From positions 1,134,462 through 1,198,461 of the forward strand of contig NZ_CP017448.1 of the NCBI RefSeq assembly GCF_001753165.1: a stretch of DNA of 64,000 nt, in the 5' to 3' direction. Within the stretch, counting starts at the first letter, position 1, and each line of letters begins with the position of its first letter. This DNA is from Acidihalobacter aeolianus (lineage in GTDB: Bacteria; Pseudomonadota; Gammaproteobacteria; DSM-5130; Acidihalobacteraceae). The notes under the pieces are model-generated. The model was not told where the DNA came from and did not search any database. It saw nothing but the letters and a program-made list of their open reading frames with translations. Below are positions 604 through 38,244 of this stretch, in pieces. The translations under genes were made by a program, and so were the position numbers.

Positions 604-2340
604 ATGGCACTGTCTGGGGACGTCAAAGAGCGGGCAAGAGGCCTGCTGCATGCACTGTATGAGTGCGCTGGAATGGACGAGGCCATTGCGGGTCTCGAAA
701 GCCGCCTCTCCGAGGGGCTGCCAGAGGTACGTCCGCGCCCGCCGCTTTCCGAGCGCGATGCGCTGCTGATCACCTACGGCAACACCTTCAGCGCACCAGG
801 CGAGGCGCCGTTGGCGACCTTGCGGCGTTTCCTGCGTGACCATGTCGGTTCGGCGATCAGCCTCGTGCATCTGCTGCCGATTTTCCCGTACAGCTCAGAC
901 GACGGCTTCTCGGTGGTCAATTACCGCGAGGTCAACCACGAGTTGGGGAACTGGGATAACATCGTCGCGATCGGCGCCGAATACGGCCTCGCGCTCGATC
1001 TGGTGCTCAACCACTGTTCGCGCAGCCACCTGTGGTTCCAGGATTACATCCGCGGCGAGGCGCCGGGCCGCGATTACTTCGTGGAGGCCGATCCGGACGA
1101 TCCCCGCCTGGCCCTGGTCACACGTCCGCGCAACAGCCCGCTGCTGACCCCGGTCGAAGTCCGCGATCAGGGCTCGCGCTGGGTCTGGACTACGTTCAGC
1201 GCCGATCAGGTCGACCTCAATTTCGCCAATCCGGCGGTGCTCCTGGAGTTCGTCGATATCCTGCTGGACTACATTCGCCACGGCGCGCGCATCGTGCGCC
1301 TGGATGCGGTCGCCTACCTGTGGAAGAAGCTCGGCACGCCGTGCATCAACCTGCCCGAGACCCACGCCGTGGTGAAGTGCCTGCGTCTCGTGGTTGATGC
1401 CGTAGCCCCGGGAACCCAGCTGCTGACCGAAACCAACGTGCCGCAGGCGGAGAACCTGAGCTATTTCGGCGACGGCGACGAGGCGCATCTGATCTATCAG
1501 TTCAGCCTTGCGCCGCTGCTGCTGCACGCCCTGACCCTCGGTCGCACCTCGGCCCTGCGCACTTGGGCGTCGGCGGTGCCGGCGCCGCCTCCGGGCGCGT
1601 CCTACGTCAACTTCACCGCTTCTCACGACGGCGTCGGTCTGCGCCCACTTGAGGGTCTGGTGTCCGAGGCAGACCGCGACGCCCTGCTGCGGCGAATGCG
1701 CGAGCGGGGCGGCTACGTGTCGATGCGCCGTTTGCCCGACGGGCGCGATTCGCCGTACGAACTCAACATCAGCTATTTCAGCGCCCTGGGCGGCGACGAC
1801 GGCGAGGTGGCGCAACTTGCGCGCTTCCTGCTCGCGCAGACTGTGGCCCTGTCCCTGCAGGGCGTGCCGGCTCTCTATGTGCAGTCGCTGATCGCTACCG
1901 AGAGCGATCTGCTGGGCGTGGAACGCACCGGACAGACCCGGGCGATCAACCGCCGCCGCTGGGACTACGGCGAGCTCAGCGGTCTGCTGGCGCGCGAGGG
2001 ATCGGTACAGGCGCGCTGCCTGAGCGAGATCGTGCGCCGCCTCAAGTTGCGCCAGGCACATCGTGCTTTCCATCCCGAGGCTGCGCAGCAGATCTTGGAC
2101 AGCGACGACGGCGTGTTCGCCGTGCTGCGCACTCCGCGTCCGGTGGACCGGGGCGTGTCCATGCCGGTGCTCTGCCTGTTCAATTTCACCCCGGAAGTGC
2201 GTGAGGTGGATATAGGGGCGGTATGCGACGACAACGGCCGGCAGAGCGTGGTCGATCTGATCGGCAACCGCCGGCTGGCCTGTCCTCGGCGCATGATTCG
2301 CCTGCCGGCCTACGCCAGCATGTGGATCAAGGCGGTCTGA
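604..2340 (+). CDS. GH13_18 phosphorylase, probably glucosylglycerate phosphorylase
   Basis: This 578-residue protein is a glycoside hydrolase family 13 enzyme of the sucrose-phosphorylase subfamily. Visible are the barrel motifs LLPIFPYSSDDGFSV, LVLNH (near residue 135), RLDAVAY (nucleophile D234), LTETNV (acid/base E276) and SHDG (D342). It starts at ATG with GGAGG just upstream. Members act on sucrose, sucrose-6-phosphate or glucosylglycerate, using phosphate to release glucose-1-phosphate. Its neighbour across the convergent junction (6 bases apart) is a glucosyl-3-phosphoglycerate synthase with its phosphatase, so glucosylglycerate is the best-supported substrate. The family call is seen; substrate choice is inference from context. 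Confidence 0.85.
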   Translation: MALSGDVKERARGLLHALYECAGMDEAIAGLESRLSEGLPEVRPRPPLSERDALLITYGNTFSAPGEAPLATLRRFLRDHVGSAISLVHLLPIFPYSSDDGFSVVNYREVNHELGNWDNIVAIGAEYGLALDLVLNHCSRSHLWFQDYIRGEAPGRDYFVEADPDDPRLALVTRPRNSPLLTPVEVRDQGSRWVWTTFSADQVDLNFANPAVLLEFVDILLDYIRHGARIVRLDAVAYLWKKLGTPCINLPETHAVVKCLRLVVDAVAPGTQLLTETNVPQAENLSYFGDGDEAHLIYQFSLAPLLLHALTLGRTSALRTWASAVPAPPPGASYVNFTASHDGVGLRPLEGLVSEADRDALLRRMRERGGYVSMRRLPDGRDSPYELNISYFSALGGDDGEVAQLARFLLAQTVALSLQGVPALYVQSLIATESDLLGVERTGQTRAINRRRWDYGELSGLLAREGSVQARCLSEIVRRLKLRQAHRAFHPEAAQQILDSDDGVFAVLRTPRPVDRGVSMPVLCLFNFTPEVREVDIGAVCDDNGRQSVVDLIGNRRLACPRRMIRLPAYASMWIKAV

Positions 2341-2346
2341 AGCGCT

Positions 2347-3567
2347 TCAGGGCGCGGTCGCGTTGTCCTCCGCCACCGCGTCAGCGAGGGCCTGCGGAAT
2401 GTCCGGGCAGGCGCTGGCGACCCGGCTCCAGCTCGGTATGTAGGGGGGTTCGAAGGGGCTGGCGAGGAAGGTGTCGCCGGCCTCGATCACCGCGCGGGTG
2501 AAGGTTTCCACCGCGGCTTCCTCGGCGTGGATGTTGAAGTCGAGGCCGTTGAGCGCGGCGTCGGCCTGATAGCGCTGCACCAGATCCAGCGCGTTGCGCA
2601 GATAGGCGGCCTTCAGGGTGCGGAAGGTTTCCGGCGCGAGCACCACCCCCTCGGTCGCCAGCTTGCGGAACACCGACACCGCGATTTCGCGGCTCATGCG
2701 CGCCAGCCCGCTGTTGGCGTCGCTTTCCGACATCGATTGGTGCTTGTGGTCGTAGCGGGCGGCGATGTCTACCTGGCAGACGCGACGGCTGTTCAGATTG
2801 CGGTAGACCTCCGACAGCAGCCCGACTTCGAGTCCCCAGTCCGGCGGAATGCGCAGCCGGGTGATTTCGTCGGCGTGCATCGCGAACTCGCCGGACAGGG
2901 GATAGCGGAAGGCGTCGAGGAATTCGAGGTAGTTCATCGAGCCGAGAATCTGCGCCAGGCTGCGGATCAGCGGGGTGAAGAACAGCCGCGATACGCGCCC
3001 GCCCAGCCGGTTGTCGGCCACGCGCGGGTAGTAGCCCTTGCAGAAGCGGAAACCGAAGTCGGGCGCGGCGATGGGGTACAGCAGGCGCGCCGGCAGGGCG
3101 CGGTCGTAGGTGAGGATGTCGGCGTCGTGCACCGCAACGACCTCGGCAATGCCGGTCGCCGCGATGTAGCCGAGGCAGTACCAGACGTTGCGTCCCTTGC
3201 CGGGTTGGTTGGGGGCCAGATCTTCCGCTGCCAGCCGGTCGTGGATCGCACGCAGCCGCGGGCCGTCGTTCCACAGCAGGTGCAGCGGCTGAGGCAGGCG
3301 GGAGAAGAACTGCCGGGCGGCGTGAAACTGCGCCTCGTCGGCCTGGTCCAGGCCGATCACCACCGACGACAGATAGGGAATCCTGGCGATGTGGTCGATG
3401 ATGTTCGACAGCGCAGGCCCTTCCAGTTCGGAGTAGAGCGCCGGGATCAGCAGTGCCAGCGGCCGCTTCTCGTTGTAGTCGCACAGTGCCCGTTCCAGGT
3501 CGTCGAGACTGCGGGTGCCCAGATCGTGCAGCGTGGCGACCGTGCCGCCCTGATAAAAATCGGCCAT
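2347..3567 (-). CDS. gpgS: Glucosyl-3-phosphoglycerate synthase (GT81)
   Basis: This 406-residue protein matches retaining GT81 glycosyltransferases, which join NDP-glucose and 3-phosphoglycerate. Visible are an N-terminal IPALYSE sugar-nucleotide segment, GPRLRAI, GKGRN (123-127), the metal-binding DAD at 148-150 and a conserved SGEFAM region. The open frame runs further upstream, but the start at 3567 is chosen because the upstream part overlaps the phosphatase gene in another frame. The stop of that gene lies one base before this ATG, so they are co-transcribed. Mannosyl donor use (MpgS-like) is possible but GT81 proteins of this length are usually GpgS. Confidence 0.9.
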   Translation of the reverse strand: MADFYQGGTVATLHDLGTRSLDDLERALCDYNEKRPLALLIPALYSELEGPALSNIIDHIARIPYLSSVVIGLDQADEAQFHAARQFFSRLPQPLHLLWNDGPRLRAIHDRLAAEDLAPNQPGKGRNVWYCLGYIAATGIAEVVAVHDADILTYDRALPARLLYPIAAPDFGFRFCKGYYPRVADNRLGGRVSRLFFTPLIRSLAQILGSMNYLEFLDAFRYPLSGEFAMHADEITRLRIPPDWGLEVGLLSEVYRNLNSRRVCQVDIAARYDHKHQSMSESDANSGLARMSREIAVSVFRKLATEGVVLAPETFRTLKAAYLRNALDLVQRYQADAALNGLDFNIHAEEAAVETFTRAVIEAGDTFLASPFEPPYIPSWSRVASACPDIPQALADAVAEDNATAP

Positions 3568-3568
3568 G

Positions 3569-4336
3569 TTATGCCACTCCCAGACGTGTGAGCGCGTCGA
3601 TCCAGCCGGTCGGGCCTGCCTGGCGCGCGTGAAGGCAAGAGGTGTCCGCGGGCAGGGGATTGGGCCCGGGCAGACAGGCGGCCAGATCGGCCATTTCGAG
3701 CAGTCGGCGGTCGTTGGGGGCGTCGCCCAGAGCGATGATCCGGGGACGCCGACTGCCGGCATACAGATGATGCAGCAGCGCGCTGGCGCCGGTGGACTTG
3801 TCGATGCCGAGCGGCTGCACGGTCAGGAAGCGGCCGCCTTGCAATGCGGTCAGCCCCAGGGCACGCAAGCGGTCGAGCAGCCTCTGGTCGGGCGATCCGC
3901 TCCAGCGCAGGGGCTCGGAGGCCATGCGCGTGCGTGCCGCCAGGGCATTGATCGGGCTGAGGCCGGTCAGTCGGCACACCGTGCCCAGCGACCAGTCGCC
4001 GAAGCCTTCCAGCGGCAGATCCAGGGCGCTGCGCAGGCCGCGCACCGCGGCGCGGATTGAGGTGTAGCGCCAGGTGGTGAGCCGTTCCACGTACCAGCCG
4101 CGATCACGCCGCGGCAGGCACAGCGCGGCGCCATTCTCGACCACTGCGGGTCCATGCAGGCTCCAGCGCCGCCAGAGATTCAACACCTCGGCCGCTGTCT
4201 TGCTGGTGGCAGGGATGACCGGGATGCCGCGGGCCGCCAGCCGGCGGATGAACGGCGCGGCTTTGCCCAGCCCGCCGCGGGCGTCGAGCAGGGTGTGGTC
4301 GAGGTCGGTGAAGATTACGGTGTGGCGGTGAGTCAT
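3569..4336 (-). CDS. HAD-IIB glucosyl/mannosyl-3-phosphoglycerate phosphatase
   Basis: A 255-residue HAD-superfamily phosphatase of the MpgP/GpgP group that dephosphorylates glucosyl- or mannosyl-3-phosphoglycerate to give the compatible solute. The catalytic DLDHTLLD motif starts at D11 (nucleophile D11, D13), PATSK is motif II and GDAPNDR is the C-terminal metal motif. The start at 4336 (MTHRHTV) puts motif I at the usual distance from the N terminus; an in-frame start at 4384 is less typical. It is the first gene of the pair with gpgS. Whether the sugar is glucose or mannose follows from the neighbour, not from this protein. Confidence 0.88.
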   Translation of the reverse strand: MTHRHTVIFTDLDHTLLDARGGLGKAAPFIRRLAARGIPVIPATSKTAAEVLNLWRRWSLHGPAVVENGAALCLPRRDRGWYVERLTTWRYTSIRAAVRGLRSALDLPLEGFGDWSLGTVCRLTGLSPINALAARTRMASEPLRWSGSPDQRLLDRLRALGLTALQGGRFLTVQPLGIDKSTGASALLHHLYAGSRRPRIIALGDAPNDRRLLEMADLAACLPGPNPLPADTSCLHARQAGPTGWIDALTRLGVA

Positions 4337-4569
4337 CAGAGACAATCGTCGCTCGGCCTGGTCCAGCACGGGAGTGTACCGCATGCAGGGAGTGTGCCGG
4401 GCGAAACGGGGTTTTTGATGAGATTGTTGAACGGCAAGATGATCGCAGGCTATATGCGGCTGCCAAAATTGCCATGGAATCCCATTAGTGGAATTCGGTG
4501 AGTGGTTGGTACCGAAGTTTGGGACACCATTCGTAACTTTTCGATATGTATGGCTTATCGGTGATAAAA

Positions 4570-4610
4570 CTGAAACACCACCGTCGCGACCAGCATCGGT
4601 GGTGTTTCAG
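4570..4610 (-). terminator. Perfect 13-bp inverted repeat, likely terminator of the DUF3579-like gene
   Basis: Positions 4570-4582 and 4598-4610 are exact reverse complements separated by 15 bases. On the minus strand the stem is followed by GTTTTATC, a short T-rich tail. It lies 22 bases past the stop of the minus-strand gene at 4632. The rest of 4337-4631 contains no gene I can support; it should hold the promoter of the gpg pair near its left side. Confidence 0.5.
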
Positions 4611-4631
4611 GTGTGCGCCCAAACTTTATCT

Positions 4632-4967
4632 TCACGCAGCATGGGCTTGTTGAGTGGTGGTGGGGTCGTAGTACGCGCGATCTCCCTCCAGGGTATAGAC
4701 TTCCAGATGATTGCTGGCGATGAAATCGAGTACTTGCCTGTAGACGTAATCGCGATCTGTACGCATGGCGTCGAAATCAACCTCAACACAATGGCCGTAA
4801 CCCTCTACATAAGCTGGCTGCAGATACTCTGCATAAACCAGATGGTGCTGTTCGTTATATTCGGCAGCCATATCGCTAAGCATTTCAGACCATGCAGAGG
4901 GTCGGAACTTGACGCCATTACGATAGCCTGAAACGATCAGTTTGCCGTGTAGTTCTATGTTGTTCAT
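4632..4967 (-). CDS. DUF3579-family protein
   Basis: A 111-residue protein resembling the DUF3579 family of small proteobacterial proteins. Conserved traits include a short beta start, a GxKFRPSAWSEML segment, a YAEYLQPAY segment, GHCVEVDFDAM, and a DYVYRQVLDFIASNHLEV helix. Start 4967 is chosen because AAGGAG lies nine bases upstream; a longer open frame to 5129 runs through a hairpin-rich leader and looks noncoding. The function of the family is not known to me. It follows the quinol oxidase genes on the same strand and shares their lower GC. The family assignment is from memory of the motif pattern. Confidence 0.7.
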   Translation of the reverse strand: MNNIELHGKLIVSGYRNGVKFRPSAWSEMLSDMAAEYNEQHHLVYAEYLQPAYVEGYGHCVEVDFDAMRTDRDYVYRQVLDFIASNHLEVYTLEGDRAYYDPTTTQQAHAA

Positions 4968-5235
4968 CTTATTCGCTCCTTCATGGTGGTTTGAAGGACC
5001 GCCGCTGCAGGTGCTTTCCACCTGCAGCGTGCGTGTAACGTCTGTTTGACGTTCTACGCGGATGCGGCCATGGGTCCCATAGCGGCCGTCATCCCCGCGG
5101 TTAAGGCAGGGTAATGCCTTGATCCGCATGAATATATTGCCATAGCCAGTTCCATGGTAACTGATCCATATCAGGGAAAACGCAGTGGAATATGCAATGC
5201 CATCGTGGCATTAAGCTGATGCGGATTTCATCATT
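4968..5235 (-). other. Hairpin-rich intergenic leader between cyoD and the DUF3579-like gene
   Basis: No gene is supported here. Five perfect small inverted repeats occur in series: arms 5004-5013/5019-5028 (10 bp, loop 5), 5037-5042/5048-5053 (6 bp), 5103-5108/5115-5120 (6 bp), 5161-5165/5170-5174 (5 bp) and 5196-5202/5206-5212 (7 bp, loop 3). None is followed by a run of T on the minus strand. They could be a structured 5' leader or RNA element for the downstream gene, or processing/termination hairpins after the oxidase operon. Confidence 0.4.
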
Positions 5236-5580
5236 TCACGTACCCCCGATCATCGTGCGGTGCGTCAATGTGATAAACATCATGGTTGTCAGCCCAATGG
5301 TGATGACCAGTAGCGGCAGCGTGAGCACCAGCGAAACGGTATGCCAAATCCGGTGTTCGGACAGGTTGAGCTTGAAGAAGGCATAAAGCTGTACGGCGAT
5401 TACGATGAGTGCGATGGCCAGGATCAGGATCAACAATGCAGGACCGTTCAGCCAGTGGGTGTTGAGCAGCCAGACACAGGCCGCCATTGCTAAGTATTCG
5501 AGAATAAACACGAACAGATATCCTGCGCCATTGGCGACGATATCCTGCGCCATTGGCGACCTGGACCTCGGGATGTTCAA
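5236..5580 (-). CDS. cyoD: Quinol oxidase subunit IV (CyoD-like), 5' end frameshifted
   Basis: A small three-helix membrane protein following the subunit III gene. Helices are near GYLFVFILEYLAMAA, LLILILAIALIVIAV and VSLVLTLPLLVITIG, as in heme-copper oxidase subunit IV. The expected start, with a GGAG site, is ATG at 5611 or 5605, which encodes a short tail (MSMSHSHFDPIEHPEV). A 22-bp tandem duplication at 5517-5560 throws that start out of frame. The intact helices are reached only from TTG 5580 or ATG 5553. Removing one repeat copy restores a single continuous protein. It may be a slightly truncated working gene, a switchable one or a pseudogene. Confidence 0.75.
   Translation of the reverse strand: MNIPRSRSPMAQDIVANGAGYLFVFILEYLAMAACVWLLNTHWLNGPALLILILAIALIVIAVQLYAFFKLNLSEHRIWHTVSLVLTLPLLVITIGLTTMMFITLTHRTMIGGT
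5517..5560. repeat. Exact 22-bp tandem duplication inside cyoD
   Basis: Positions 5517-5538 and 5539-5560 are identical and directly adjacent. Twenty-two is not a multiple of three, so gain or loss of one copy changes the reading frame of the subunit IV gene. The flanking bases differ, so the repeat is exactly two copies. Confidence 0.95.
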
Positions 5581-5632
5581 TCGGATCGAAGTGTGAGTGC
5601 GACATCGACATGTCTCCGTAGGTTTGCAGTGA

Positions 5633-6265
5633 TCAGATGGCAGCCAATGAGGTCGAACCCATGAGGTAGACGAGGGTGAATACGCAGACCCAGATCACGG
5701 CCTGAAACAGCCAGAATATTTTGAGGTTGAGCAGGCGATACACCACGTCCTCAGTGAATCCCTCAAGCGCCACCTGAATGAACATGGCTGCCAACCAGAG
5801 CAGGCCAAAGGCAACGTGCACGGCGTGAACCAGCACGATGACCCAGTAATCGGACAGGAAGCCGCTCTTTTCGGGAATTGCACCCATCGCGTATAGATCG
5901 CTGAATTCGTGCCATTCCATGCCCAGGAAAGCGATGCCCAGGACGAATGCCATGGCAATGCCGAGGAGTACGCCACTGCGATTGGCCTTCTTGAGAGAGA
6001 CCATGGCATATCCATAGGCGAGAACGCTGGCAAAGATGAATGCCGTCGACCACAGGGCGGGGCCCGGATGGATGACCTGACCTGCAGTAAAGGCTCCTGC
6101 ATAGTGCATCCCGTCGGCGTAGATGCCGAAGGTGGCGAACAATCCGGCAAAGATCATCAGGTCGCTCATCATGTACAACCAGAAGCCGAGTGTTCGCGTG
6201 CCAATGGCATCGTGTGGGTGATCCTCGTATTGCCACATGTCGCTGGTGTCTTGGTATGTATTCAT
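5633..6265 (-). CDS. cyoC: Quinol oxidase subunit III (CyoC-like)
   Basis: A 210-residue, five-helix integral membrane protein of the heme-copper oxidase subunit III family. It starts with a soluble tail (WQYEDHPHDAIGTRTLGFWLYMMSDLMIFAGLF), where GFWLYMMSDLM is the usual first-helix signature. A GMEWHEF segment and a conserved WVIVLVHAVHVAFGL helix follow. It stabilises the catalytic subunit and affects proton uptake. It lies 63 bases after subunit I in the same direction. Length and five-helix form fit the quinol oxidase branch (CyoC) rather than seven-helix mitochondrial-type CoxC. Confidence 0.9.
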   Translation of the reverse strand: MNTYQDTSDMWQYEDHPHDAIGTRTLGFWLYMMSDLMIFAGLFATFGIYADGMHYAGAFTAGQVIHPGPALWSTAFIFASVLAYGYAMVSLKKANRSGVLLGIAMAFVLGIAFLGMEWHEFSDLYAMGAIPEKSGFLSDYWVIVLVHAVHVAFGLLWLAAMFIQVALEGFTEDVVYRLLNLKIFWLFQAVIWVCVFTLVYLMGSTSLAAI

Positions 6266-6328
6266 CAGTCGTGAACTCCAGAAATCAGGCTTGAGTCGTT
6301 CTGGCTGAAGCGGTGTTCCCGCATGAAA

Positions 6329-8446
6329 TCAATAATCCGGATGTCTGGCCGCGGGAGCGCCATGGTTGGGCATGGATCCGCCGCCGGTTCCCATAGAAAC
6401 GGGGTTCTCGATTTCTTCGGTTTGGCGATGCGGCCGCGATGTGCGTTCCAGTTCCCCGATTGCCTCGGCCGTGATGACATATCCGGGGTTCTTGGTGAAG
6501 GAGCGAATCAGCACCAGTGCGATGATCGCAATGAAGCTGACCAGGGCCAGCCAGTAAATGCGCCATACCATGGAGAAACCGCAGATCAGGGTGAAACCGC
6601 TGATGATGATCGGCATGCCAGTGTTGTTCGGCATGTGTATGTCTGTGTAGCGTTCGGGCTGCCGATCAAGAGTACCCTGTTCGCGTCGCCAGACGACCTC
6701 GTCCAGTGCATGCACGATCGGAGTCACGGCGAAGTTGTAGAACGGAACCGGCGTATGGGTCAGCCACTCAAGGCTCCGCGAAGTACCCCAGGCATCATCG
6801 GCAGTGACGGCATTGCTGGCGCGGTCACGGTAACTGACGTAGATCATGCCTAGAAACACGAATACCGAAACCAGATAGAAGCCGATGCCGCACAGTTCGA
6901 TCAGCAGCAGGGGCCACCACGAAGGGTGGGAGATGTAATCGAGACGACGCGTCATGCCCATGAGGCCGAGCGTATACATCGGCAGGAAAACCAGGGCAGT
7001 GCCGGTCGAGAATAACCAGAAGAACATGCGTCCAAGGCGTTCATCGAGCTTGAAGCCGAACACCTTGGGCCACCAAAAGACGATCGCGCCGAAAGCAGCG
7101 TAGGTGATCACCATGAACATGTTGTGAAAGTGGGCAACCACAAAAACACTGTTGTGCACAATGTAGTTGATCGCTGGAATGGACAGCATCATGCCCGTCA
7201 TGCCGCCGATGATGAGCAGAAAGACCGATGTTACCGCCCATAGCATCGGTACCTCCATCCGGATGCGGCCTCGATACATCGTGAACACCCAGTTGAACAC
7301 CTTCACGCCCGTCGGAATGCCGACCAGCATGGTGGTGATGCTGTAGAAGGCCAGTACCTTTGGGCTGGCGCCCATGGTGAAGAAATGGTGCAGCCAGACC
7401 AGCCAGGACACACCGGCGATACTGAATGAAGCCAGTACCATGGTGGTGTAGCCAAACAACGGTTTGCGAGAAAAGGTTGGAATGATTTCAGACAGAAATC
7501 CGAAAGCCGGCAGTACGACGAAGTACACTTCCGGGTGTCCCCAGATCCAGAACAGGTTGGTGTACATCATGAGATCACCGCCAAGGCCAGCGGTGAAGAA
7601 GTGCGTGCCAAGGTAGCGATCGAAGGTCAAAAGGCTGAGTGCAACGCCAAGTACCGGGAACGAGGTCAGCCCGATGATGCTGGTGGCCATCGAAGTCCAG
7701 GTGAATATCGGCAGTCGAAACCATTTCATACCTGGGGCGCGCATCTTGATGATCGTGGCGATGATGTTGATCGAGCCCAGCGTCGTGCCGATGCTGCCGA
7801 TCTGTATCGACCATATCCAGTAATCCACGCCCACTCCTGGGCTGTATGCAAGTTCGGTAAGAGGTGCGAGGCCGACCCAGCCGGCGTGCGAGAAATCGCC
7901 GACGAACAGCGCGATCATGACCAATGCGGCCGACACGGCGGTCAACCAAAGTCCGAGAGCATTTAAATACGGATAAGCCATATCGCGCGCGCCTATCTGC
8001 AGCGGCACGATCAAGTTCATCATGCCGATAAGAATCGGTGTGACCGCCAACAAGATCATGATCATTCCGTGCGCGGTCCAAACCTGATCAAGATGGAAAG
8101 GTGGCAGATATCCGTGCAAGGCGCCGAGCACGCCAGGGGAATTTGGTCCAACGGCTAAGGCTTGTTGAGAGCGGATCATGAGCGCGTCGAAAAAACCACG
8201 GAACAGCATGACCAGGCCGATCAGCACATACATGATGCCGATTTTCTTGTGGTCTACCGTGGTCAACCAGTCGCGCCACAGCCAGCCCCAGCGGCCAAGA
8301 ATCGTGAGCGTCGTGAGGACGGCTGTGCCCCCGACTGTGACCAGCATGAAGGCGAAAAATATGACGGGGTTGTTGTAGTGCGGGATCAGCAGCAGGCCAA
8401 GGCGGCCGAACAGTTCATTCCATGGACCTTGTAGATGAACAGGCAT
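6329..8446 (-). CDS. cyoB: Cytochrome bo3-type ubiquinol oxidase subunit I
   Basis: A 705-residue catalytic subunit that oxidises quinol, reduces oxygen to water and pumps protons. Typical stretches include WLTTVDHKKIGIMY, the CuB/heme helix WGHPEVYFVVLP, WLHHFFTMG, the TGVKVFNW K-channel region and AHFHNMF with the heme ligands. Residues matching the E. coli CyoB quinol site are present: R83, D87, H118 and Q121; H126 is a heme ligand. This, with the lack of CuA in subunit II, indicates quinol rather than cytochrome c as donor. The C-terminal tail (ERTSRPHRQTEE onward) is long and hydrophilic. The operon lacks cyoE, so heme O/A synthesis must come from elsewhere. Confidence 0.93.
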   Translation of the reverse strand: MPVHLQGPWNELFGRLGLLLIPHYNNPVIFFAFMLVTVGGTAVLTTLTILGRWGWLWRDWLTTVDHKKIGIMYVLIGLVMLFRGFFDALMIRSQQALAVGPNSPGVLGALHGYLPPFHLDQVWTAHGMIMILLAVTPILIGMMNLIVPLQIGARDMAYPYLNALGLWLTAVSAALVMIALFVGDFSHAGWVGLAPLTELAYSPGVGVDYWIWSIQIGSIGTTLGSINIIATIIKMRAPGMKWFRLPIFTWTSMATSIIGLTSFPVLGVALSLLTFDRYLGTHFFTAGLGGDLMMYTNLFWIWGHPEVYFVVLPAFGFLSEIIPTFSRKPLFGYTTMVLASFSIAGVSWLVWLHHFFTMGASPKVLAFYSITTMLVGIPTGVKVFNWVFTMYRGRIRMEVPMLWAVTSVFLLIIGGMTGMMLSIPAINYIVHNSVFVVAHFHNMFMVITYAAFGAIVFWWPKVFGFKLDERLGRMFFWLFSTGTALVFLPMYTLGLMGMTRRLDYISHPSWWPLLLIELCGIGFYLVSVFVFLGMIYVSYRDRASNAVTADDAWGTSRSLEWLTHTPVPFYNFAVTPIVHALDEVVWRREQGTLDRQPERYTDIHMPNNTGMPIIISGFTLICGFSMVWRIYWLALVSFIAIIALVLIRSFTKNPGYVITAEAIGELERTSRPHRQTEEIENPVSMGTGGGSMPNHGAPAARHPDY

Positions 8447-8462
8447 CGCGTGGGCTCCTGAG

Positions 8463-9422
8463 TCAGTTGGAGTGAGTGCGGAAGATTTTGGCGTGCATGT
8501 TTTCCGTCATGGCCATCGGGGTGACATAGTGAAGGCGTTGCGAACGTACTGCTTTTATGACTTTGGCGAACAAGCCGGTTTTTACATCGGAAAAATAATG
8601 TATTTTTCTTTCGATATTGACAGTCGGCTCGGCAAACCTGGAGAAGCTTGCATAGTTCAAGGTGTTTTTAGAGATCCCGGCTTTTTTTATCCAGGCTGTG
8701 AATTTCACCGGCGGAACAGCCTTGAGCTTGAAATCCATCCAAGAGAAACCGGGGCCGCTGAATGCCGCTGAAAACCCATGATAGCTACCTGGATGGTCAA
8801 CTTCGAAAGATTGTTTTGTGCGCATACCGGGCATTGCGTAAATCTGCCCAACGATCTGCGGGATATAGAAGCTGTTGACCACAGACGTCGAGGTCAACTT
8901 CAAATGCAGTTTCGTCCCGGTCGGCACAACGAGCTCGTTGGCTACTGCAATATGTTTATTCGGGTAAACAAAGAGCCACTGCCAATCTGTGGTTATGACA
9001 TCGACCGTGAGTGGTTTGTGGGAACGGGCTGTGCTGGCGCCGTGGCTATTAAGTGCATGTGGATTGTAGGGGTTGACGGCTTGAATGCCGCGCCATGAGT
9101 AATATGACAGCATGCCAACGATCAGCAGTGGTATCCCCCATACCACAACCTCTATCACATTTGAGTGCGACCATTCTGGTGCAAATGCCGATCTGCGTTT
9201 TTCTCGGTAGCGCCAGACTACCCATATCAGCAGGAAAGTCGTTGGTACGATCACGATTGCCATCAAGGTCACATCGATAATCATGTAGTGCAATTCTGTG
9301 TCAGCGATGAGTCCTTTGGGATCGAACAGCCAAAAATGGGTGTCGCTACAGCCACTCAGAAGCAGCAAGGGTGAATACGCTAGGTAACGAAAATATAAAA
9401 CGTACCGTTTCGCCCATTTCAT
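8463..9422 (-). CDS. cyoA: Quinol oxidase subunit II, lipoprotein (CyoA-like)
   Basis: A 319-residue subunit with a lipoprotein signal ending in LLSGC, two membrane helices (about 46-70 and 88-110) and a periplasmic cupredoxin fold. The region that carries the CuA ligands in cytochrome c oxidases reads GFSAAFSGPGFSWM and has no cysteines, as in CyoA; this marks a quinol oxidase. The TDWQWLFVYP segment is conserved. The gene starts the operon, with AGGAGG upstream of the ATG. Base composition is clearly AT-richer than most of the window, suggesting acquisition by transfer. Confidence 0.92.
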   Translation of the reverse strand: MKWAKRYVLYFRYLAYSPLLLLSGCSDTHFWLFDPKGLIADTELHYMIIDVTLMAIVIVPTTFLLIWVVWRYREKRRSAFAPEWSHSNVIEVVVWGIPLLIVGMLSYYSWRGIQAVNPYNPHALNSHGASTARSHKPLTVDVITTDWQWLFVYPNKHIAVANELVVPTGTKLHLKLTSTSVVNSFYIPQIVGQIYAMPGMRTKQSFEVDHPGSYHGFSAAFSGPGFSWMDFKLKAVPPVKFTAWIKKAGISKNTLNYASFSRFAEPTVNIERKIHYFSDVKTGLFAKVIKAVRSQRLHYVTPMAMTENMHAKIFRTHSN

Positions 9423-33191: not shown

Positions 33192-33436
33192 CACTAGAAG
33201 CTGTGTGCCGTTACTTGCGTAAGGCATGTCCTCGACGTTTCGAAGACGATCTAAGGATACGGTACAAGAACCGTGCTAATCGTTGCGCTAAATCGCGCTA
33301 CGCACATGCCGCGAGATACCCATATATGCCTATATGCGCACATGCGAAAATACGCTGTAAGTGACTGTTTTGCTGCAAAGATCTAAAAAATACCGCCAAA
33401 TCAGCGGCTTACGTAAGTCATTGATTTTGGGAAGTG

Positions 33437-33480
33437 TGGTGCTCCCACGGGGACTCGAACCCCGGTTTTCGCCGTGAGAG
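33437..33480 (-). repeat. attL-type site: displaced 3' end of tRNA-Glu
   Basis: Positions 33441-33480 are identical over 40 bases to 38173-38212 inside the intact tRNA-Glu gene. On the minus strand the copy covers the anticodon arm, T arm and acceptor strand and then reads A-CCA, so it is a tRNA 3' fragment with its CCA. It marks the left boundary of the integrated element. A further 17 bases (33412-33428) just outside it are also repeated near the right end. Confidence 0.9.
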
Positions 33481-33603
33481 AGTGAACCTTTATTATATCG
33501 GCGTTTCCGCATGTATCAGAAAGTACCAATGACAACAATGACTTAGAAATATGCCTTGTCTTGAGGTGTCCCAAAGTATCGGTTATTCTCGCTCCATATA
33601 ATG

Positions 33604-33622
33604 CACAAAAAGTGATACCACG
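33604..33622. repeat. 19-bp direct repeat near both element ends (candidate integrase arm site)
   Basis: CACAAAAAGTGATACCACG occurs at 33604-33622, just before the integrase gene, and again at 38118-38136, just inside the right end. A related inverted TAAGTCATTG motif is at 33535-33544 and 38152-38161. Repeats placed symmetrically inside both ends are what integrase arm or excisionase sites look like. Confidence 0.55.
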
Positions 33623-33642
33623 CCCACGGAGGACGTAAGGTT

Positions 33643-34845
33643 ATGGCTAGAATGGTCAGAGACGCGGTGCTACAGAACCGCACAAACCGGCTCAAGCTGG
33701 CCGACCGCTGTTACCACTGGCGGACGATTAGCAAGGGTCTGTCGATTGGCTACCGGCGAGGCGGTGGAACGGGCACGTGGTATGTCCGAACCATCAAAAA
33801 CGGCAAGCGCACACTCAGGGCGCTAGGCAAGGCCGACGACTTTCAGGAAGCGGACGGAGCCGAGATACTGAACTTCGGGCAAGCCCAAAACGCCGCCCGC
33901 GACATGGCGCACGAACTGGCAACACGCAGAACCCTGTACACCGTGAACGATGCGCTGAACCACTATCTTGAATGGTTCAAGGCCGAGCGCCGGAGCTATG
34001 ACAAGACGAAAGGCACTGTTGACCGCCTGATTAGGCCGAAGCTTGGCAAGTATCAGTTGGCCGAGCTAACGCCCGACATTATCCGCCGCTGGCGCGATGG
34101 ACTTGTGCGACCAAGCGATAAGCCGGACAGATTACGCGCACGACGAGCCACGGCTAACAGGGTGCTGACCGTCCTGAAAGCCGCGTTGAACCACGCATGG
34201 CGGAACGACAAAGTTGAATCGGATGGCGCGTGGAGGCGTGTCGGCCCCTATCAGCGGGTGGACGCGCCGAAAATACGCTATTTGAGCGTGGACGAATCAC
34301 AGCGGCTTGTGAACGCATGCGAGCCTGATTTTCGCCTGCTGGTGCAAGCGGCGCTGTATTGTGGCGCACGGTATGGCGAACTGATTGCTGCTTCCGTGAA
34401 GGACTACCACCCGGACGCAAAAATATTGATGTTGACGCACACGAAAAACGGCAAGCCGCGAGCCGTGCCGCTGACCGTTGAGGGTGACGCTTTCTTTAGC
34501 CGGGTGGCCGCTGGCAAGGAACCGGGAAGTCGATTATTCACCCGCGAAAATGGCGAGCATTGGAAGGCGTCTGACCAAGTGCGAAGGATGGCAGCGGCCT
34601 GCGAACGCGCCGGGTTGGAAAAGGTCAGGTTCCACGATTTGCGGCACAGCTACGGTTCCGCGTTGGCAATGGCAGGGGTTCCGCTACAGGTCATTGCGCA
34701 CGTGCTCGGACATTCCGACACGCGAATAACAGAGCGCCATTACGCGCACCTGTCGCCGTCATTCGTGGCCGATGCCGTTAGAGGCAGCCTGCCCGACCTG
34801 GGGGCGCACAAGGGTGATAATGTGATTCCGATAAAGCGGGAGTGA
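33643..34845 (+). CDS. int: Tyrosine-type integrase of the tRNA-Glu element
   Basis: A 400-residue phage-type recombinase. An N-terminal arm-binding domain (YVRTIKNGKRTLRALGKADDF) and a SAM-like core-binding domain (VNDALNHYLEWFKAERRSYDKTKG) precede the catalytic domain. Catalytic residues visible are R in CGARYGEL, K in HTKNGKPR, HxxR in HDLRHSYGS, H in LGHSDTRITERHY and the nucleophile Y of that last motif. It should catalyse integration at the tRNA-Glu gene. It lies at the end carrying the displaced tRNA fragment. Confidence 0.95.
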   Translation: MARMVRDAVLQNRTNRLKLADRCYHWRTISKGLSIGYRRGGGTGTWYVRTIKNGKRTLRALGKADDFQEADGAEILNFGQAQNAARDMAHELATRRTLYTVNDALNHYLEWFKAERRSYDKTKGTVDRLIRPKLGKYQLAELTPDIIRRWRDGLVRPSDKPDRLRARRATANRVLTVLKAALNHAWRNDKVESDGAWRRVGPYQRVDAPKIRYLSVDESQRLVNACEPDFRLLVQAALYCGARYGELIAASVKDYHPDAKILMLTHTKNGKPRAVPLTVEGDAFFSRVAAGKEPGSRLFTRENGEHWKASDQVRRMAAACERAGLEKVRFHDLRHSYGSALAMAGVPLQVIAHVLGHSDTRITERHYAHLSPSFVADAVRGSLPDLGAHKGDNVIPIKRE

Positions 34846-34911
34846 TTGAGAACGGGCAAGGCCAGCGGTGGCACGCTGACCAAGCCCTACCATCGAACAG
34901 GGAGGTGAACG

Positions 34912-35568
34912 ATGAATGCAGGCGATATTACCATCCGGCGAATTGAGCGGGAATACTTTGTCGTCCAGTCGGACGGAACCGGCGAGCCTGTCGAGGCACG
35001 CGGGCCGTTTAAAACGGTCGAGGAAGCGCAGAAAGAGCACGCTCAATGGGTAGGTGAGCTAGAGGCCGTGCAAGCCGCACAGAAGCCCGTACAGGACGCG
35101 ATAGAGGCGATGCGCGATGCTTATCTGAGGCATCCGATATTTAGAAAAATAGCCAACAGAATCGACCGCGAAACAGAAACGGGCAAATTGCAGGAACGCG
35201 CAGAACGGGCAAAAAAGATTCGTGCGGAATTAGCGGACTTCGAGTATGCACACCCACCCATCCAGACAGAACCGCAAGCGTCCGGGTGGATGCAGCAATC
35301 AACGGTTAAACCGATTGAGCCAACACCTGAGCAGATAGCGAACTGGCGAAAGAGTGCCAAGAGCGCGGCCAACGCACACCGGCACGCAAAAAAGAATCGC
35401 ATGAAAGTTCCGAAGGCGGCAGCGGCGCGGAAAGCGGGCAAGGCAGCGAACAGGGCCAAGGTGCTGGCGATGACCGCGCAAGGAATGACGAACGGGCAAA
35501 TAGCGGATAAGCTTGATATTTCAGAGCGTTACGTCAGGCAGTTGCGGAACGAGAAGGGGAGGAACTAA
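34912..35568 (+). CDS. Element protein with C-terminal helix-turn-helix, unknown role
   Basis: A 218-residue protein that I do not recognise as a whole. Residues 1-60 look like a small beta domain (ITIRRIEREYFVVQSDG..FKTVEEAQKEH). The middle is charged and helical, and residues 150-185 are rich in lysine and alanine. The C terminus (RAKVLAMTAQGMTNGQIADKLDISERYVRQLRNEKG) is a clear LuxR/sigma-4-like helix-turn-helix. A strong GGGAGGTGAACG precedes the ATG. It is probably a DNA-binding regulator or accessory protein of the element. Confidence 0.75.
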   Translation: MNAGDITIRRIEREYFVVQSDGTGEPVEARGPFKTVEEAQKEHAQWVGELEAVQAAQKPVQDAIEAMRDAYLRHPIFRKIANRIDRETETGKLQERAERAKKIRAELADFEYAHPPIQTEPQASGWMQQSTVKPIEPTPEQIANWRKSAKSAANAHRHAKKNRMKVPKAAAARKAGKAANRAKVLAMTAQGMTNGQIADKLDISERYVRQLRNEKGRN

Positions 35569-35652
35569 CCCACTCTGCAAATTCTCAGGAGGACTCCACA
35601 AAACCCAACAATTCTATTGCGCAATGTCGCGCGAATTGTTGGAGTTCTTACC

Positions 35653-35847
35653 ATGGGAAACCCTGAGGAAAAGGTTTACTCAGTTTCTGAGTTTTGCGCG
35701 CTGAGCCGAATTAGCAAGCCGACCATCTATCGACTCTGGCAGGAAGGCCGTGGGCCGGAAAGCGTTCGTGTTGGCCGCAAACGCTTAATCACCGAAAGCC
35801 CGCTTGAGTACGTGCGTCGCATCGGTGTGGCGGGGGGTGCGGAATGA
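35653..35847 (+). CDS. AlpA-like helix-turn-helix regulator/excisionase
   Basis: A 64-residue protein with a MerR/AlpA-type fold: VYSVSEFCALSRISKPTIYRLWQEGRGPESVRVGRKRLITESPLEYVRR. AlpA proteins switch on excision and operon expression in P4-like and phage-inducible islands. ATG 35653 with GGAG nine bases before is chosen over a TTG at 35617. A short AT-rich gap of about 85 bases precedes it, so a new promoter is likely here. The next gene overlaps its stop (ATGA). Confidence 0.75.
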   Translation: MGNPEEKVYSVSEFCALSRISKPTIYRLWQEGRGPESVRVGRKRLITESPLEYVRRIGVAGGAE

Positions 35848-36101
35848 GACTGACGCCGCGCCAAATTCGGGCATTGTCGATGCTCGGGAAAAACCCCGTT
35901 TCGCGGGCTACCCTGGACGAACATGCGGGTTGCAGCAACAGCCCGGCGTTGATTGCCGGGCTTCGGAGGATGGGCCTCGCTTTGCCGTGCACGATGGTGC
36001 CGTGCCGCGACCGCGACGGGCGGAAAACGCATTATGGCCTTTACCGGGCGACAGGGGACGACCGCCGTAAAATCGCCGAACTTTTGGGAGACAGCGAATG
36101 A
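35844..36101 (+). CDS. Small winged-helix-like protein of the element
   Basis: An 85-residue protein whose pattern (LTPRQIRALSMLGKNPVSRATLDEHAGCSNSPALIAGLRRMGLALPC) looks like a winged helix, followed by a short beta hairpin (RKTHYGLYRATGDD). It overlaps the genes on both sides by ATGA, so it belongs to the replication operon. The function is not known; it may help regulate or load the replication protein. Confidence 0.65.
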   Translation: MRLTPRQIRALSMLGKNPVSRATLDEHAGCSNSPALIAGLRRMGLALPCTMVPCRDRDGRKTHYGLYRATGDDRRKIAELLGDSE

Positions 36102-36778
36102 GCCGCCGGCGCGGGCCAAAGCGGGCCGAATCGCACGTCAGGCTGTACCGGCATGAGTTGGAGAGCGCGGCGTATCGCAGTCTGAGCTGTGAAGCCCGCG
36201 CCTTGCTGGTCGAGGCTAGGTCGCTGTTCAGCGGAGGCGAGAACCGCATCCATCTGTCCATCCGCAAAACACAGCGCCGGTTAGGCGTCGGTCGCCATTT
36301 GGCCGAAAAGGCCTTGGCCGAATTGCAAGACCGTGGCTTTATTCGCCTGCTCCAAAAAGGCGGCTTCAACCGCAAAGTTCGGCACTCTAGCGAATTCGCT
36401 TTGACCAACGAGCCACTGGCCGACCGTGACGGGGCCGTCCCGAGCAAGGACTTTTTGCGGTGGACGCCAGCGGAAAAAAAAATCACGGTGCCGCTCAGCA
36501 GCACCGACGGTGCGGGTCAGCAGCACCGAGGCCCTTCCGGCCTACCCCAAAAACCGCCTCACGGTGCGGACCAGCAACACCGAAAACCCTGTTTCGGGCA
36601 CATCCACGGTGCTGCCCACCAGCACACAGATAGTTTACCAGCTACTGCCATTCTTTCAGGTGGCGCAGGTGCGGCTTTCGGCTGGTGGCGCATGGCCCTA
36701 TGGCAAAGGCCCGAGGAGCAGCTCAAGGCTTGCTTGGCAATGGTCACGCTGTCCAACAGTCAGGAGGCGGCGGCATGA
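36098..36778 (+). CDS. Replication-initiator-like HTH protein with internal iterons
   Basis: A 226-residue protein. The N-terminal 110 residues (HVRLYRHELESAAYRSLSCEARALLVEARSLF, IHLSIRKTQRRLGVGRHLAEKALAELQDRGFIRLL) match a winged-helix family common in genomic islands and related to plasmid/phage replication initiators. A run of nine A (36474-36482) and four 22-bp DNA repeats follow inside the gene. The encoded C terminus there is low-complexity (GAGQQHRG, HGADQQHRK) and then ends in WWRMALWQRPEEQLKACLAMV. Iterons inside an initiator gene recall lambda O. The initiator role is inference. Confidence 0.7.
   Translation: MSRRRGPKRAESHVRLYRHELESAAYRSLSCEARALLVEARSLFSGGENRIHLSIRKTQRRLGVGRHLAEKALAELQDRGFIRLLQKGGFNRKVRHSSEFALTNEPLADRDGAVPSKDFLRWTPAEKKITVPLSSTDGAGQQHRGPSGLPQKPPHGADQQHRKPCFGHIHGAAHQHTDSLPATAILSGGAGAAFGWWRMALWQRPEEQLKACLAMVTLSNSQEAAA
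36485..36627 (+). repeat. Four 22-bp iterons, candidate replication origin
   Basis: Copies lie at 36485-36506, 36507-36528, 36561-36582 and 36606-36627, with shared pattern ACGGTGC....CAGCAGCACCG. Each is itself a partial palindrome (CGGTGC/GCACCG arms, weaker in the fourth). The first two are directly adjacent. A run of nine A lies just upstream. The set lies inside the replication-initiator-like gene. Confidence 0.75.
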
Positions 36779-36972
36779 GCGGGCCATGTCCATGCGGAGG
36801 CTTCACGCTCCATCGGAAAGCCCGACACGGCAGCGCCACCCTGTACTGGCGCAGGTGCGGCGCATGTGGCCGCTGCGGCGGCTTCGTTTTGATTCGACCG
36901 CCAGATTTAATCCTTTGCGGGGAACCGGCACGCCAAACGTTCAGCGACTTGCGGAGGCTGAGCCATGATTGA
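36775..36972 (+). CDS. Small Cys-rich zinc-ribbon-like protein of the element
   Basis: A 65-residue protein starting MSGPCPCGGF, with a second cluster CGACGRCGG, so four or more cysteines could hold a zinc ion. It overlaps the preceding stop (ATGA) and the following SSB start. Longer open frames upstream belong to other reading frames of the initiator gene. I cannot assign a function; a nucleic-acid-binding accessory protein is plausible. Confidence 0.6.
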   Translation: MSGPCPCGGFTLHRKARHGSATLYWRRCGACGRCGGFVLIRPPDLILCGEPARQTFSDLRRLSHD

Positions 36973-37336
36973 CGGGCTGATAGCCGGAAAGTTGTGCGGC
37001 AAGCCACAACAGCGAACAAGCAACGCGGGCAAGTCGTTTGCCACATGCCGGGTGCGCACGACCACGGGCGACGGCAACAGCGTCTTTGTGAACGCGATTG
37101 CCTTCGCGTCGGACGTGTGCGCGTCGCTGCTGGCACTGGCCGATGGCGACAGCGTGAGCCTGAGCGGTCCGCTGACCCCGAAGGCCTGGATGGACAAGGC
37201 TGGCGAGCCGCGACCGGCGCTTGATTTGGTGGCCCATGCGGTTCTGACGCCCTACCACGTCACGCGAAAGCGGGCTGCCATGCGGAAAACCGACCAGCCA
37301 CCCGGCGACCCGAACGACGACTTGCCGGACTTCTGA
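36965..37336 (+). CDS. ssb: Single-stranded DNA-binding protein
   Basis: A 123-residue OB-fold protein (IAGKLCGKPQQRTSNAGKSFATCRVRTTT, VFVNAIAFASDVCASLLALADGDSVSLSGPLTPKAW) with a flexible tail ending in DDLPDF. Such an acidic, phenylalanine-ended tip recruits replication and repair partners in SSB proteins. It is shorter than chromosomal SSB, as usual for mobile elements. It overlaps the Cys-rich gene by eight bases and supports the view that the element replicates itself. Confidence 0.85.
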   Translation: MIDGLIAGKLCGKPQQRTSNAGKSFATCRVRTTTGDGNSVFVNAIAFASDVCASLLALADGDSVSLSGPLTPKAWMDKAGEPRPALDLVAHAVLTPYHVTRKRAAMRKTDQPPGDPNDDLPDF

Positions 37337-37385
37337 GGCGATGCGCCAGAGTGGCAAAACAAACTGACACCAAAGGGACACTGAC

Positions 37386-37790
37386 ATGACCAAGAAAGTT
37401 GTTTCAATTCAAACCCTTGAGCGACGCAAAAAGGCTGTTGAGCTTCGCAAGGCGGGCCTGAGTTACGCCAAAATCGGCGAGCGGTTGGGTATTGCCCGGC
37501 AAAGCGCCTTCGCGCATGTCCGCCATGTGCTGAGCGAGCTTCAGGCCGAGACTGCCGAGAGCGCCGAACAGGTGCGCCAAATCGAGTTAGAGCGCTTGGA
37601 CCGCGCGACCGAGCTATGCATGCGCGGCATCGAAAACGGCGAGCTTGCGGCCATTGACCGGCTAATTCGGATTCAGGAGCGCCGCGCCCGATTGTTGGGG
37701 CTGGATGCTGTCGAACGGCTGGACATTGGCACGCAGCCATTGCCGAGCGTTATCTACTGCGAACCCGTTTCGCCAGCGCCCCGCGAATGA
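37386..37790 (+). CDS. TerS-like helix-turn-helix protein
   Basis: A 134-residue protein. The N-terminal half is a helix-turn-helix (RRKKAVELRKAGLSYAKIGERLGIARQSAFAHVRHVL). The second half is a helical oligomerisation region (QIELERLDRATELCMRGIENGELAAIDRLIRIQERRARLLGLDA). This order and the ERRARLLGLDA ending resemble HTH proteins annotated as small terminase subunits in phages. In a satellite it could direct packaging of element DNA into a helper capsid. A plain regulator is the alternative; there is no large terminase here. Confidence 0.6.
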   Translation: MTKKVVSIQTLERRKKAVELRKAGLSYAKIGERLGIARQSAFAHVRHVLSELQAETAESAEQVRQIELERLDRATELCMRGIENGELAAIDRLIRIQERRARLLGLDAVERLDIGTQPLPSVIYCEPVSPAPRE

Positions 37791-38168
37791 GGCTTTAACC
37801 GCCATCTGACCGCCTGAGAGGCGTTCTAAGCGCCGTTCTCCATTTCAGCCATAGGGTGATAGCCACCCGGCACCCTTCATCCATCCATCATCGCGTAGAC
37901 GGCCTCTGACGGCGCTCAGATAGCCCTTTTGCGCAGACCGTACAAGGCGAACGGTCGCCAGCCATAGGGTACCCTTGCTGTCGCGTGATTGGCCCCATAT
38001 GACCCCCGCTACGGCGGTCTGGTGGCCTGTTTGCCTGCAACCGACAAGGATTGCTTGCCTGTTCAATCGAGCCGCACATTCAGCGCCGCGCCCGATACGT
38101 TCCTGCACCGCATAAGTCACAAAAAGTGATACCACGATTCTGACAGTTCGCGTAAGTCATTGATTTTA
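37791..38168. other. Noncoding right end of the tRNA-Glu element
   Basis: About 380 bases with no gene I can support; small minus-strand frames here lack ribosome sites and recognisable domains. Positions 37852 and 37964 share CATAGGGT repeats. Near the right boundary are the 19-bp repeat (38118-38136) and the 17-bp repeat CGTAAGTCATTGATTTT (38151-38167), which also occurs outside the left boundary. This is probably the attachment-arm and packaging/replication side of the element. Confidence 0.4.
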
Positions 38169-38244
38169 TGGCGCTCCCACGGGGACTCGAACCCCGGTTT
38201 TCGCCGTGAGAGGGCGACGTCCTAGACCGCTAGACGATGGGAGC
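38169..38244 (-). tRNA. tRNA-Glu (anticodon CUC)
   Basis: Cloverleaf read on the minus strand: acceptor GCTCCCA pairs with TGGGAGC, D arm GTCTAGCGGTCTAGGAC, anticodon stem TCGCC/GGCGA with loop CTCTCAC (anticodon CTC), and T arm CGGGG-TTCGAGT-CCCCG. The discriminator is G and CCA is encoded. Its 3' 40 bases are the right attachment site of the element, so the working 3' end was supplied by the integrated DNA. Confidence 0.95.
38173..38212. repeat. attR-type 40-bp direct repeat within tRNA-Glu
   Basis: Identical to 33441-33480. It spans from the acceptor strand to part of the anticodon arm. Identity stops at 38213, next to the anticodon loop, so crossover probably occurred in the anticodon or T arm. 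Confidence 0.9.

Follow-up and report, generated by a model that had tools for sequence, protein, structure and literature searches.

What is the role of a 4.73-kb segment with eight genes that is bounded on either side by the 3′ part of a tRNA-Glu gene? The segment lies on the chromosome of Acidihalobacter aeolianus, at 33442-38212 of a 64,000-nucleotide window (NZ_CP017448.1, positions 1,134,462 to 1,198,461), the whole stretch of DNA analyzed here. We call it E1 and refer to related elements and contigs as E2 to E6. E1 is likely to be a minimal phage satellite that excises from the chromosome, multiplies in the manner of a RepA_N-type plasmid and uses its own small terminase (TerS) to divert the packaging motor of a helper phage, and it is probably among the smallest known parasites of bacterial viruses. 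A preliminary description of the window, made from the sequence alone, had suggested a satellite-like element of unusually small size that has its own replicon and encodes a TerS-like protein; with the attachment (att) boundaries of E2, E3 and E4 and a structural model of TerS at hand, this is the best-supported reading.

Integration at a tRNA-Glu gene

E1 is flanked by a direct repeat of 49 bp that derives from tRNA-Glu (46/49 positions identical, 94%; spacing 4732), the right copy of which belongs to an intact tRNA-Glu gene, forming its 3′ part (Table 1). The preliminary description had placed the island between 40-bp tRNA-Glu repeats. The repeats, the intact tRNA and the empty sites described below bear out this arrangement, and the repeat proves to be slightly longer than was stated. 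Three relatives contain an uninterrupted tRNA-Glu site, and the sequence obtained by joining the flanks of the E1 locus matches these sites at 78–81 of 85 positions. The segment 33442-38212 is therefore an insertion. Judged from its sequence, it is a site-specific integration at the 3′ end of tRNA-Glu.

Two further perfect repeats are found at the ends, one of 17 bp outside the att core (33412-33428 and 38151-38167) and one of 19 bp, CACAAAAAGTGATACCACG, inside E1. Both resemble integrase arm sites and are putatively assigned as such, and comparable end repeats are present in E2, E3 and E4, the related elements for which both ends are known. The left 17-bp copy lies in the chromosomal flank of attL (33412-33436), while the other is at the right end of E1, and a similar sequence occurs beside a tRNA in a congener (L036). 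The copy to the left of attL may be what remains of an earlier element that occupied this tRNA-Glu.

The last gene of E1 encodes a small terminase-like protein

The last gene of E1 is best read as that of a small terminase, a reading in which gene neighborhood weighs most, more than the fold. We call the relatives of its product the P8 family. The gene of one of them (51% identical) directly precedes that of the large terminase (TerL) in the IMG/VR contig L011, and the same position is held by relatives in Microbacterium phage Leaf (gp4/gp5), Gordonia phage Jace (gp1/gp2) and the Salinibacter plasmid pSR14. Several depositors have named such relatives terminase small subunit. E1 itself has no terL, and the adjacency to terL that characterizes the family is found in these relatives. 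E4 carries a homologue that is 68% identical (dN/dS about 0.27). The product also matches PHROG_645 (1e-22), the name of which, ‘Rnase E’, we rejected as a misnomer because members of PHROG_645 occupy terS positions. The same label is attached to gene 1 of the RefSeq phage record NC_047974, where it is probably a misannotation.

The AlphaFold2 model of the protein (pLDDT 73.5, built from three sequences) consists of a helix-turn-helix (HTH) motif (residues 8–55) followed by two helices (57–83 and 88–104). In a second structural comparison, most near-full-length matches were the small terminases of phages G20c and P74-26, with modest Z scores of 7.8 (6ejq), 6.7 (6v1i) and 6.6 (4xvn) over 99–102 residues, and TerS names occur among the BFVD structure matches. 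The predicted structure thus fits the TerS-like protein of the preliminary description rather than an ordinary repressor, with a fold match that is modest.

The HTH is the only part of the protein with significant PDB sequence matches, and in E6 a P8-like protein adjoins a Terminase_2 protein. Both observations would suit a satellite-like island in which the last gene encodes an HTH regulator of helper packaging or late genes instead of TerS. Considering (i) the position of P8 relatives directly before TerL in L011, Leaf, Jace and pSR14, (ii) the fit of the helices beyond the HTH to small terminases, and (iii) the gene in the same slot of E2, which is unrelated to P8 and has a relative that overlaps terL in Rhizobium phage RHph_N2, such a regulator is quite unlikely.

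Two P8-containing loci deserve separate mention. E6 (L056, 1566-7279) encodes P4-like (P4 is a small winged-helix-like protein of E1), primase-like and SSB-like proteins (SSB, single-stranded DNA-binding protein), a DUF927 helicase, the P8-like protein and the separate Terminase_2 small terminase, so that two TerS-like proteins stand side by side. Plasmid pSR14 (L059, 14.9 kb) carries genes for a primase-helicase, a P8-like protein, a terminase and ParA, has no annotated structural gene, and may be a plasmid-form satellite or a phage-plasmid.

A probable RepA_N-like replicon with internal iterons

The AlphaFold2 model of the replication initiator (Rep) comprises a winged helix (about residues 18–105), a low-confidence linker and C-terminal helices. 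Its four best PDB alignments (4pql, 4pt7, 5kbj and 4pta; Z 9.2–10.2 over 94–99 residues) are all to RepA_N-type plasmid initiators. The preliminary description had associated iterons with this initiator-like gene, and four palindromic repeats of 25 bp (76–100% identical to the reference) are indeed found within it, spanning codons 129–177. The arrangement parallels that of pSK41-type RepA_N replicons, in which a winged-helix N-terminus is combined with four boxes located centrally in rep, where they encode the linker, and with a further C-terminal domain that interacts with DnaG (PMC5703833). Unlike pSK41, E1 is a chromosomally integrated island with an integrase and TerS, and its Rep lacks a Pfam RepA_N match.

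A second parallel is provided by the phage-inducible chromosomal island-like element (PLE), a satellite of Vibrio cholerae that uses RepA_N, otherwise nearly absent from Proteobacteria (PMC7145576). The PLE authors give 4PTA and 4PT7 as matches of the PLE initiator. By its fold and iterons, which fit, the E1 initiator may be of the RepA_N type found in PLE, though it has no Pfam RepA_N match; the lack of predicted primase or helicase activity in the initiator is common to E1 and PLE. It differs in having a tyrosine integrase rather than a large serine recombinase, in size (4.7 versus about 18 kb) and in the location of the repeats, which PLE has in a separate non-coding region and E1 within rep. 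The same authors raised the possibility that RepA_N genes located next to recombinases on chromosomes belong to cryptic satellites (PMC7145576), for which E1 is a concrete candidate.

Repeats accompany Rep in related loci as well. The IMG/VR contig L038 encodes an AlpA-like protein, P4 and a Rep whose gene holds four internal palindromic repeats, CACCGTCTCACGGTG; the Rep gene of E3 contains tandem 11-bp repeats, and in E2 the repeats lie directly 3′ of a shortened Rep gene. A search of viral contigs for Rep relatives with alignment A2 returned none. That the E1 replicon is autonomous is supported by homology, fold and gene neighborhood. In L038 (1-14705), two tail tape-measure-like genes flank the int/AlpA/P4/Rep region, which perhaps adjoins a prophage or lies within one.

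Related elements and exchange of modules

E1 to E4 follow a common plan, in which the integrase gene is succeeded by an AlpA gene, a replication module and one or more terminase genes towards attR. E2 resides on the same chromosome in tRNA-Gly (462226-467624, L016 6226-11624; 5.4 kb; 50-bp att repeat, 98%) and encodes an integrase, an AlpA-like protein, P4, the shortened Rep, a different TerS-like protein as its terminal gene and an Mrr-type nuclease. E3 (genome G057, tRNA-Leu, L029 4620-12032; 7.4 kb; 60-bp att repeat) has genes for an integrase, an AlpA-like protein, P4, Rep, a TerS candidate and a large terminase (PHROG_2 1e-22), and no recognizable capsid gene. E4, the closest sister of E1 and from another genus of the same family (genome G004, tRNA-Arg, L054 3590-9847; 6.2 kb; 69-bp att repeat, 90%), encodes an integrase, a homologue of the HTH protein P2, an AlpA-like protein, a CHC2 zinc finger, a DUF3987 protein (5e-88) and TerS, the DUF3987 primase module replacing Rep and SSB of E1. 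E5 (G194), which is cut by a contig end, retains a helicase/primase-like gene that we read as DUF3987-like, an E4-related gene, TerS and tRNA-Met. Homologous elements with tRNA att boundaries, on the existence of which the preliminary description had made its case depend, are thus present in other genomes (E3 and E4) as well as on the same chromosome (E2). Among the 369 Gammaproteobacteria searched, host included, 3 had a member of the P4 family and 8 a member of the P8 family, which shows that close relatives are rare in that sample. The Mrr-type nuclease of E2 (Mrr_cat 1e-32), which is situated between two copies of the right-end block, is likely to be defence cargo.

If E1 is a satellite, the elements offer a natural experiment on modularity. 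The DNA of E1 and E4 is 70–79% identical across terS, the right-end block and a part of P2, whereas their replication modules and att sites differ; E1 and E2 have in common the right-end block, P4 and a related Rep, and their last genes are unrelated. On balance, we slightly favor the view that the elements form an undescribed mini-satellite family (4.7–7.4 kb, at tRNA 3′ ends of Gammaproteobacteria) that is built from swappable blocks. Its frame would consist of a tyrosine integrase, AlpA and, in E1, E2 and E4, a common right end, its replication slot would be filled by a DUF3987 primase or by a plasmid replicon of the RepA_N type, and its packaging slot would hold different types of TerS, or TerS together with TerL.

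The sister elements also bear on whether E1 is a decayed prophage or a satellite remnant that has lost its mobility. E1 is very small, has no structural gene and no detected resident helper, and its G+C content is 59% compared to 65% in the flanks, which would suit a remnant. However, no gene of E1 is broken, both att copies and the arm-type repeats are intact, complete sisters of 5.4–7.4 kb with the same plan occupy other tRNAs, and TerS, P2 and P4 are under purifying selection (dN/dS 0.24–0.39; about 0.24 for P4 compared to E2), which indicates selection for function. A remnant is thus improbable.

A conserved non-coding block at the right end

The non-coding block between terS and the right arm-type repeat is 81% identical between E1 and E2 over 103 bp and 79% identical between E1 and E4 over 170 bp. 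Right-end alignment scores for these pairs (61–159) exceed the maxima obtained with shuffled sequences (26–30), and the block was absent from every other place searched. For a cis element that survives the exchange of replicon, TerS and integrase, a role in packaging or in recognition by the helper is the best reading, the main alternative being an origin of transfer (oriT).

If the block were an oriT used in trans by a conjugative plasmid, E1 would be an integrative plasmid-like or mobilizable element that spreads by conjugation and, with Rep and the iterons, exists as a plasmid once excised, and its last HTH protein would be a regulator. The RepA_N-like replicon is of plasmid type, the conserved cis block is independent of the TerS type, and the host has been reported to contain a 162-kb plasmid with transfer genes (PMC5255921). 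Nevertheless, such an element is unlikely: no relaxase gene is present among the E1 ORFs (Pfam), which also distinguishes E1 from relaxase-type integrative mobilizable elements, the host plasmid contains nothing that matches the right-end block, the last gene has the context and fold of a small terminase, and the sister E3 carries TerL.

Other leads from the right end were discarded. An 18-mer matched two contigs, once in a tail gene and once ahead of a different terS, at a distance of a few hundred bases, which we judged to be at chance level. Two short matches in relatives lie among ordinary genes and are likewise due to chance, and a special DNA structure of the right end was not significant (z about −1.5).

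Helper phage and points against the satellite interpretation

Several results weigh against E1 being a satellite that is packaged by means of its own TerS. No helper phage was found for E1, and no phage carrying its right end was found in phage records or, with one pattern, in IMG/VR; furthermore, this right end is kept in E2 despite the different TerS. Foldseek comparison of the TerS model with the PDB gives nothing below E 0.49, and the Z scores of 6.6–7.8 may reflect a common arrangement. With a P8-like protein and a Terminase_2 TerS both present in E6, proteins of the P8 family may in some cases not be the sole TerS. Finally, the Rep model is of low confidence overall (pLDDT 52) and Rep does not match Pfam RepA_N, so what we claim for Rep is fold and architecture, not family membership.

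Among large terminase profiles searched against the host, phrog_2 matched only a RecD helicase, and phrog_9 and PF03237 had no match; an incoming phage, perhaps a virulent one, would thus be required. As no helper was found, it is from the properties of E1 and its relatives that we infer a satellite. A Mu-like prophage with a large terminase is present in a congener (L065, about 2200-9100) and contains the only terminase found in the genus with PF03237. It was rejected as a helper candidate, that genome being without a relative of P8 or of the E2 TerS.

Relation to known satellites

The hallmarks of phage-inducible chromosomal islands (PICIs) are an integrase, AlpA, replication genes and sometimes TerS (PMC6092414), and E1, in agreement with the preliminary description, presents an integrase, an AlpA-like protein and Rep/SSB in this order. 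It thereby resembles Gram-negative PICIs of the EcCICFT073 type, some PICIs also carrying terS, and shows the conserved organization by which PICIs are defined, with an integrase, a master regulator and a replication module. As in PICIs, no structural or lytic phage gene is found among its eight genes (Pfam, PHROG). In contrast to PICIs, E1 measures 4.7 kb instead of the criterion size of about 12–15 kb, occupies a tRNA site and has a RepA_N-like initiator with SSB in place of Pri-Rep. A further PICI criterion is an att site that prophages never occupy; the tRNA-Glu site is empty in the three relatives, a sample too small to decide the point.

E1 shares with the phage-inducible chromosomal minimalist islands (PICMIs; PMC10803314) its minimal size, the succession of int, alpA, one small gene and a replication gene, and the absence of capsid genes (no capsid-forming gene among the eight; Pfam, PHROG). 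It differs from them in its location at tRNA-Glu rather than fis, in the lack of a primase (no DUF3987/DUF5906 match in Pfam) and in having TerS as its last gene; the DUF3987 primase type of the PICMI model is found in E4, not in E1. P4-like satellites and capsid-forming PICIs (cf-PICIs) have comparable integrase and AlpA modules and take over helper packaging, as E1 may do, whereas E1 has no P4 alpha-type primase, capsid-size gene or capsid genes. We therefore file E1 as a variant phage satellite that is neither a PICMI, a cf-PICI nor a PLE and is smaller than PICIs.

PICMI115 (6.1 kb), which was described in 2024 as the smallest satellite with characterized activity, has no terS homologue (PMC10803314). 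If our interpretation is correct, the gene set of a TerS-carrying satellite fits into less than 5 kb, below PICMI115, and E1 connects PICI- and PICMI-like islands to the type of replicon, RepA_N, that PLE is known to use. If the elements do form a family, RepA_N replication would be used repeatedly by satellites of Gram-negative bacteria and not be a peculiarity of PLE. Acidihalobacter is a biomining acidophile for which our literature search returned no description of phage satellites.

A model of the E1 life cycle

From these comparisons, we infer how E1 might be induced, excised, replicated and packaged. The tyrosine integrase would insert E1 at the 3′ end of tRNA-Glu and also excise it as a circle, for which AlpA (and perhaps P2) would serve as the factor that sets directionality or activates; activation would be driven by AlpA, by analogy with PICIs and PICMIs. 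AlpA, P4, Rep, the Cys-rich protein and SSB would be expressed from one overlapping early operon. Rep would bind the iterons in its own gene and initiate theta replication, for which helicase, primase and polymerase would come from the host or the helper, as with the RepA_N proteins of pSK41 and PLE. TerS would then recognize E1 DNA, probably in the right-end block adjoining terS, and hand it to the TerL and capsid of the helper. It is plausible that a helper packages E1 by way of the TerS-like protein, probably as concatemers, because 4.7 kb is far below the size of a phage genome and by analogy with PICMI115.

Gene organization of E1

All eight ORFs of E1 lie on the plus strand, in keeping with the eight co-oriented genes of the preliminary description, whose integrase, AlpA-like protein and SSB are likewise recovered by profile searches (Table 1). 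For the AlpA-like protein, the Pfam AlpA model itself scores 0.03, below cut-off, and the SSB match (25.2 bits) is just under the cut-off of 26. Overlaps of four nucleotides (ATGA) connect the AlpA gene to P4, P4 to Rep and Rep to the Cys-rich gene, and the latter overlaps the SSB gene by eight nucleotides, so the genes from AlpA to SSB have the appearance of a single operon with translational coupling.

Table 1 Features of E1 and its boundaries (window coordinates)
Feature	Position	Strand	Evidence or remark
attL, left copy of tRNA-Glu 3′ part	33437-33485 (core about 33442-33481)		direct repeat, empty sites
Left arm-type repeat, putative integrase arm site	33604-33622		perfect 19-bp repeat
Tyrosine integrase, 400 aa	33643-34845	+	Pfam Phage_integrase 2e-26, SAM_3 1e-6
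HTH protein P2, 218 aa	34912-35568	+	C-terminal HTH_23 3e-7
AlpA-like regulator/excisionase	35653-35847	+	HTH_17 8e-8, PHROG_10045 1e-5, excisionase PHROG_66 9e-4
P4, small winged-helix-like protein, 85 aa, directly 3′ of AlpA	35844-36101	+	homologues in sister elements
Replication initiator (Rep), RepA_N-like fold, 226 aa	36098-36778	+	AlphaFold2 model, PDB alignments
Four palindromic iterons in the Rep gene, putative origin	36483-36628		repeat search
Small Cys-rich protein, 65 aa	36775-36972	+	no family match
Single-stranded DNA-binding protein (SSB), 123 aa	36965-37336	+	Pfam SSB 1.8e-5
Small terminase (TerS)-like protein, 134 aa	37386-37790	+	TerL-adjacent relatives, fold, E4 homologue
Conserved non-coding right-end block, candidate packaging site	37790-38095		common to E2 and E4
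Right arm-type repeat	38118-38136		perfect 19-bp repeat with 33604-33622
tRNA-Glu (CTC), intact; 3′ part is attR (38169-38217)	38169-38244	−	ARAGORN, repeat

The Cys-rich protein has no Pfam match up to E=5 and no PHROG match up to E=1. P2 had no match in the phage records searched; its homologue in E4 occupies the same position (49% identity over 148 residues), and it is possibly a regulator or an excision accessory. Homologues of P4 are encoded by E2 (54% identical), E3 and the loci L028, L038 and L039. For the AlpA-like gene, an ATG at 35653 is a more likely start than a TTG at 35617.

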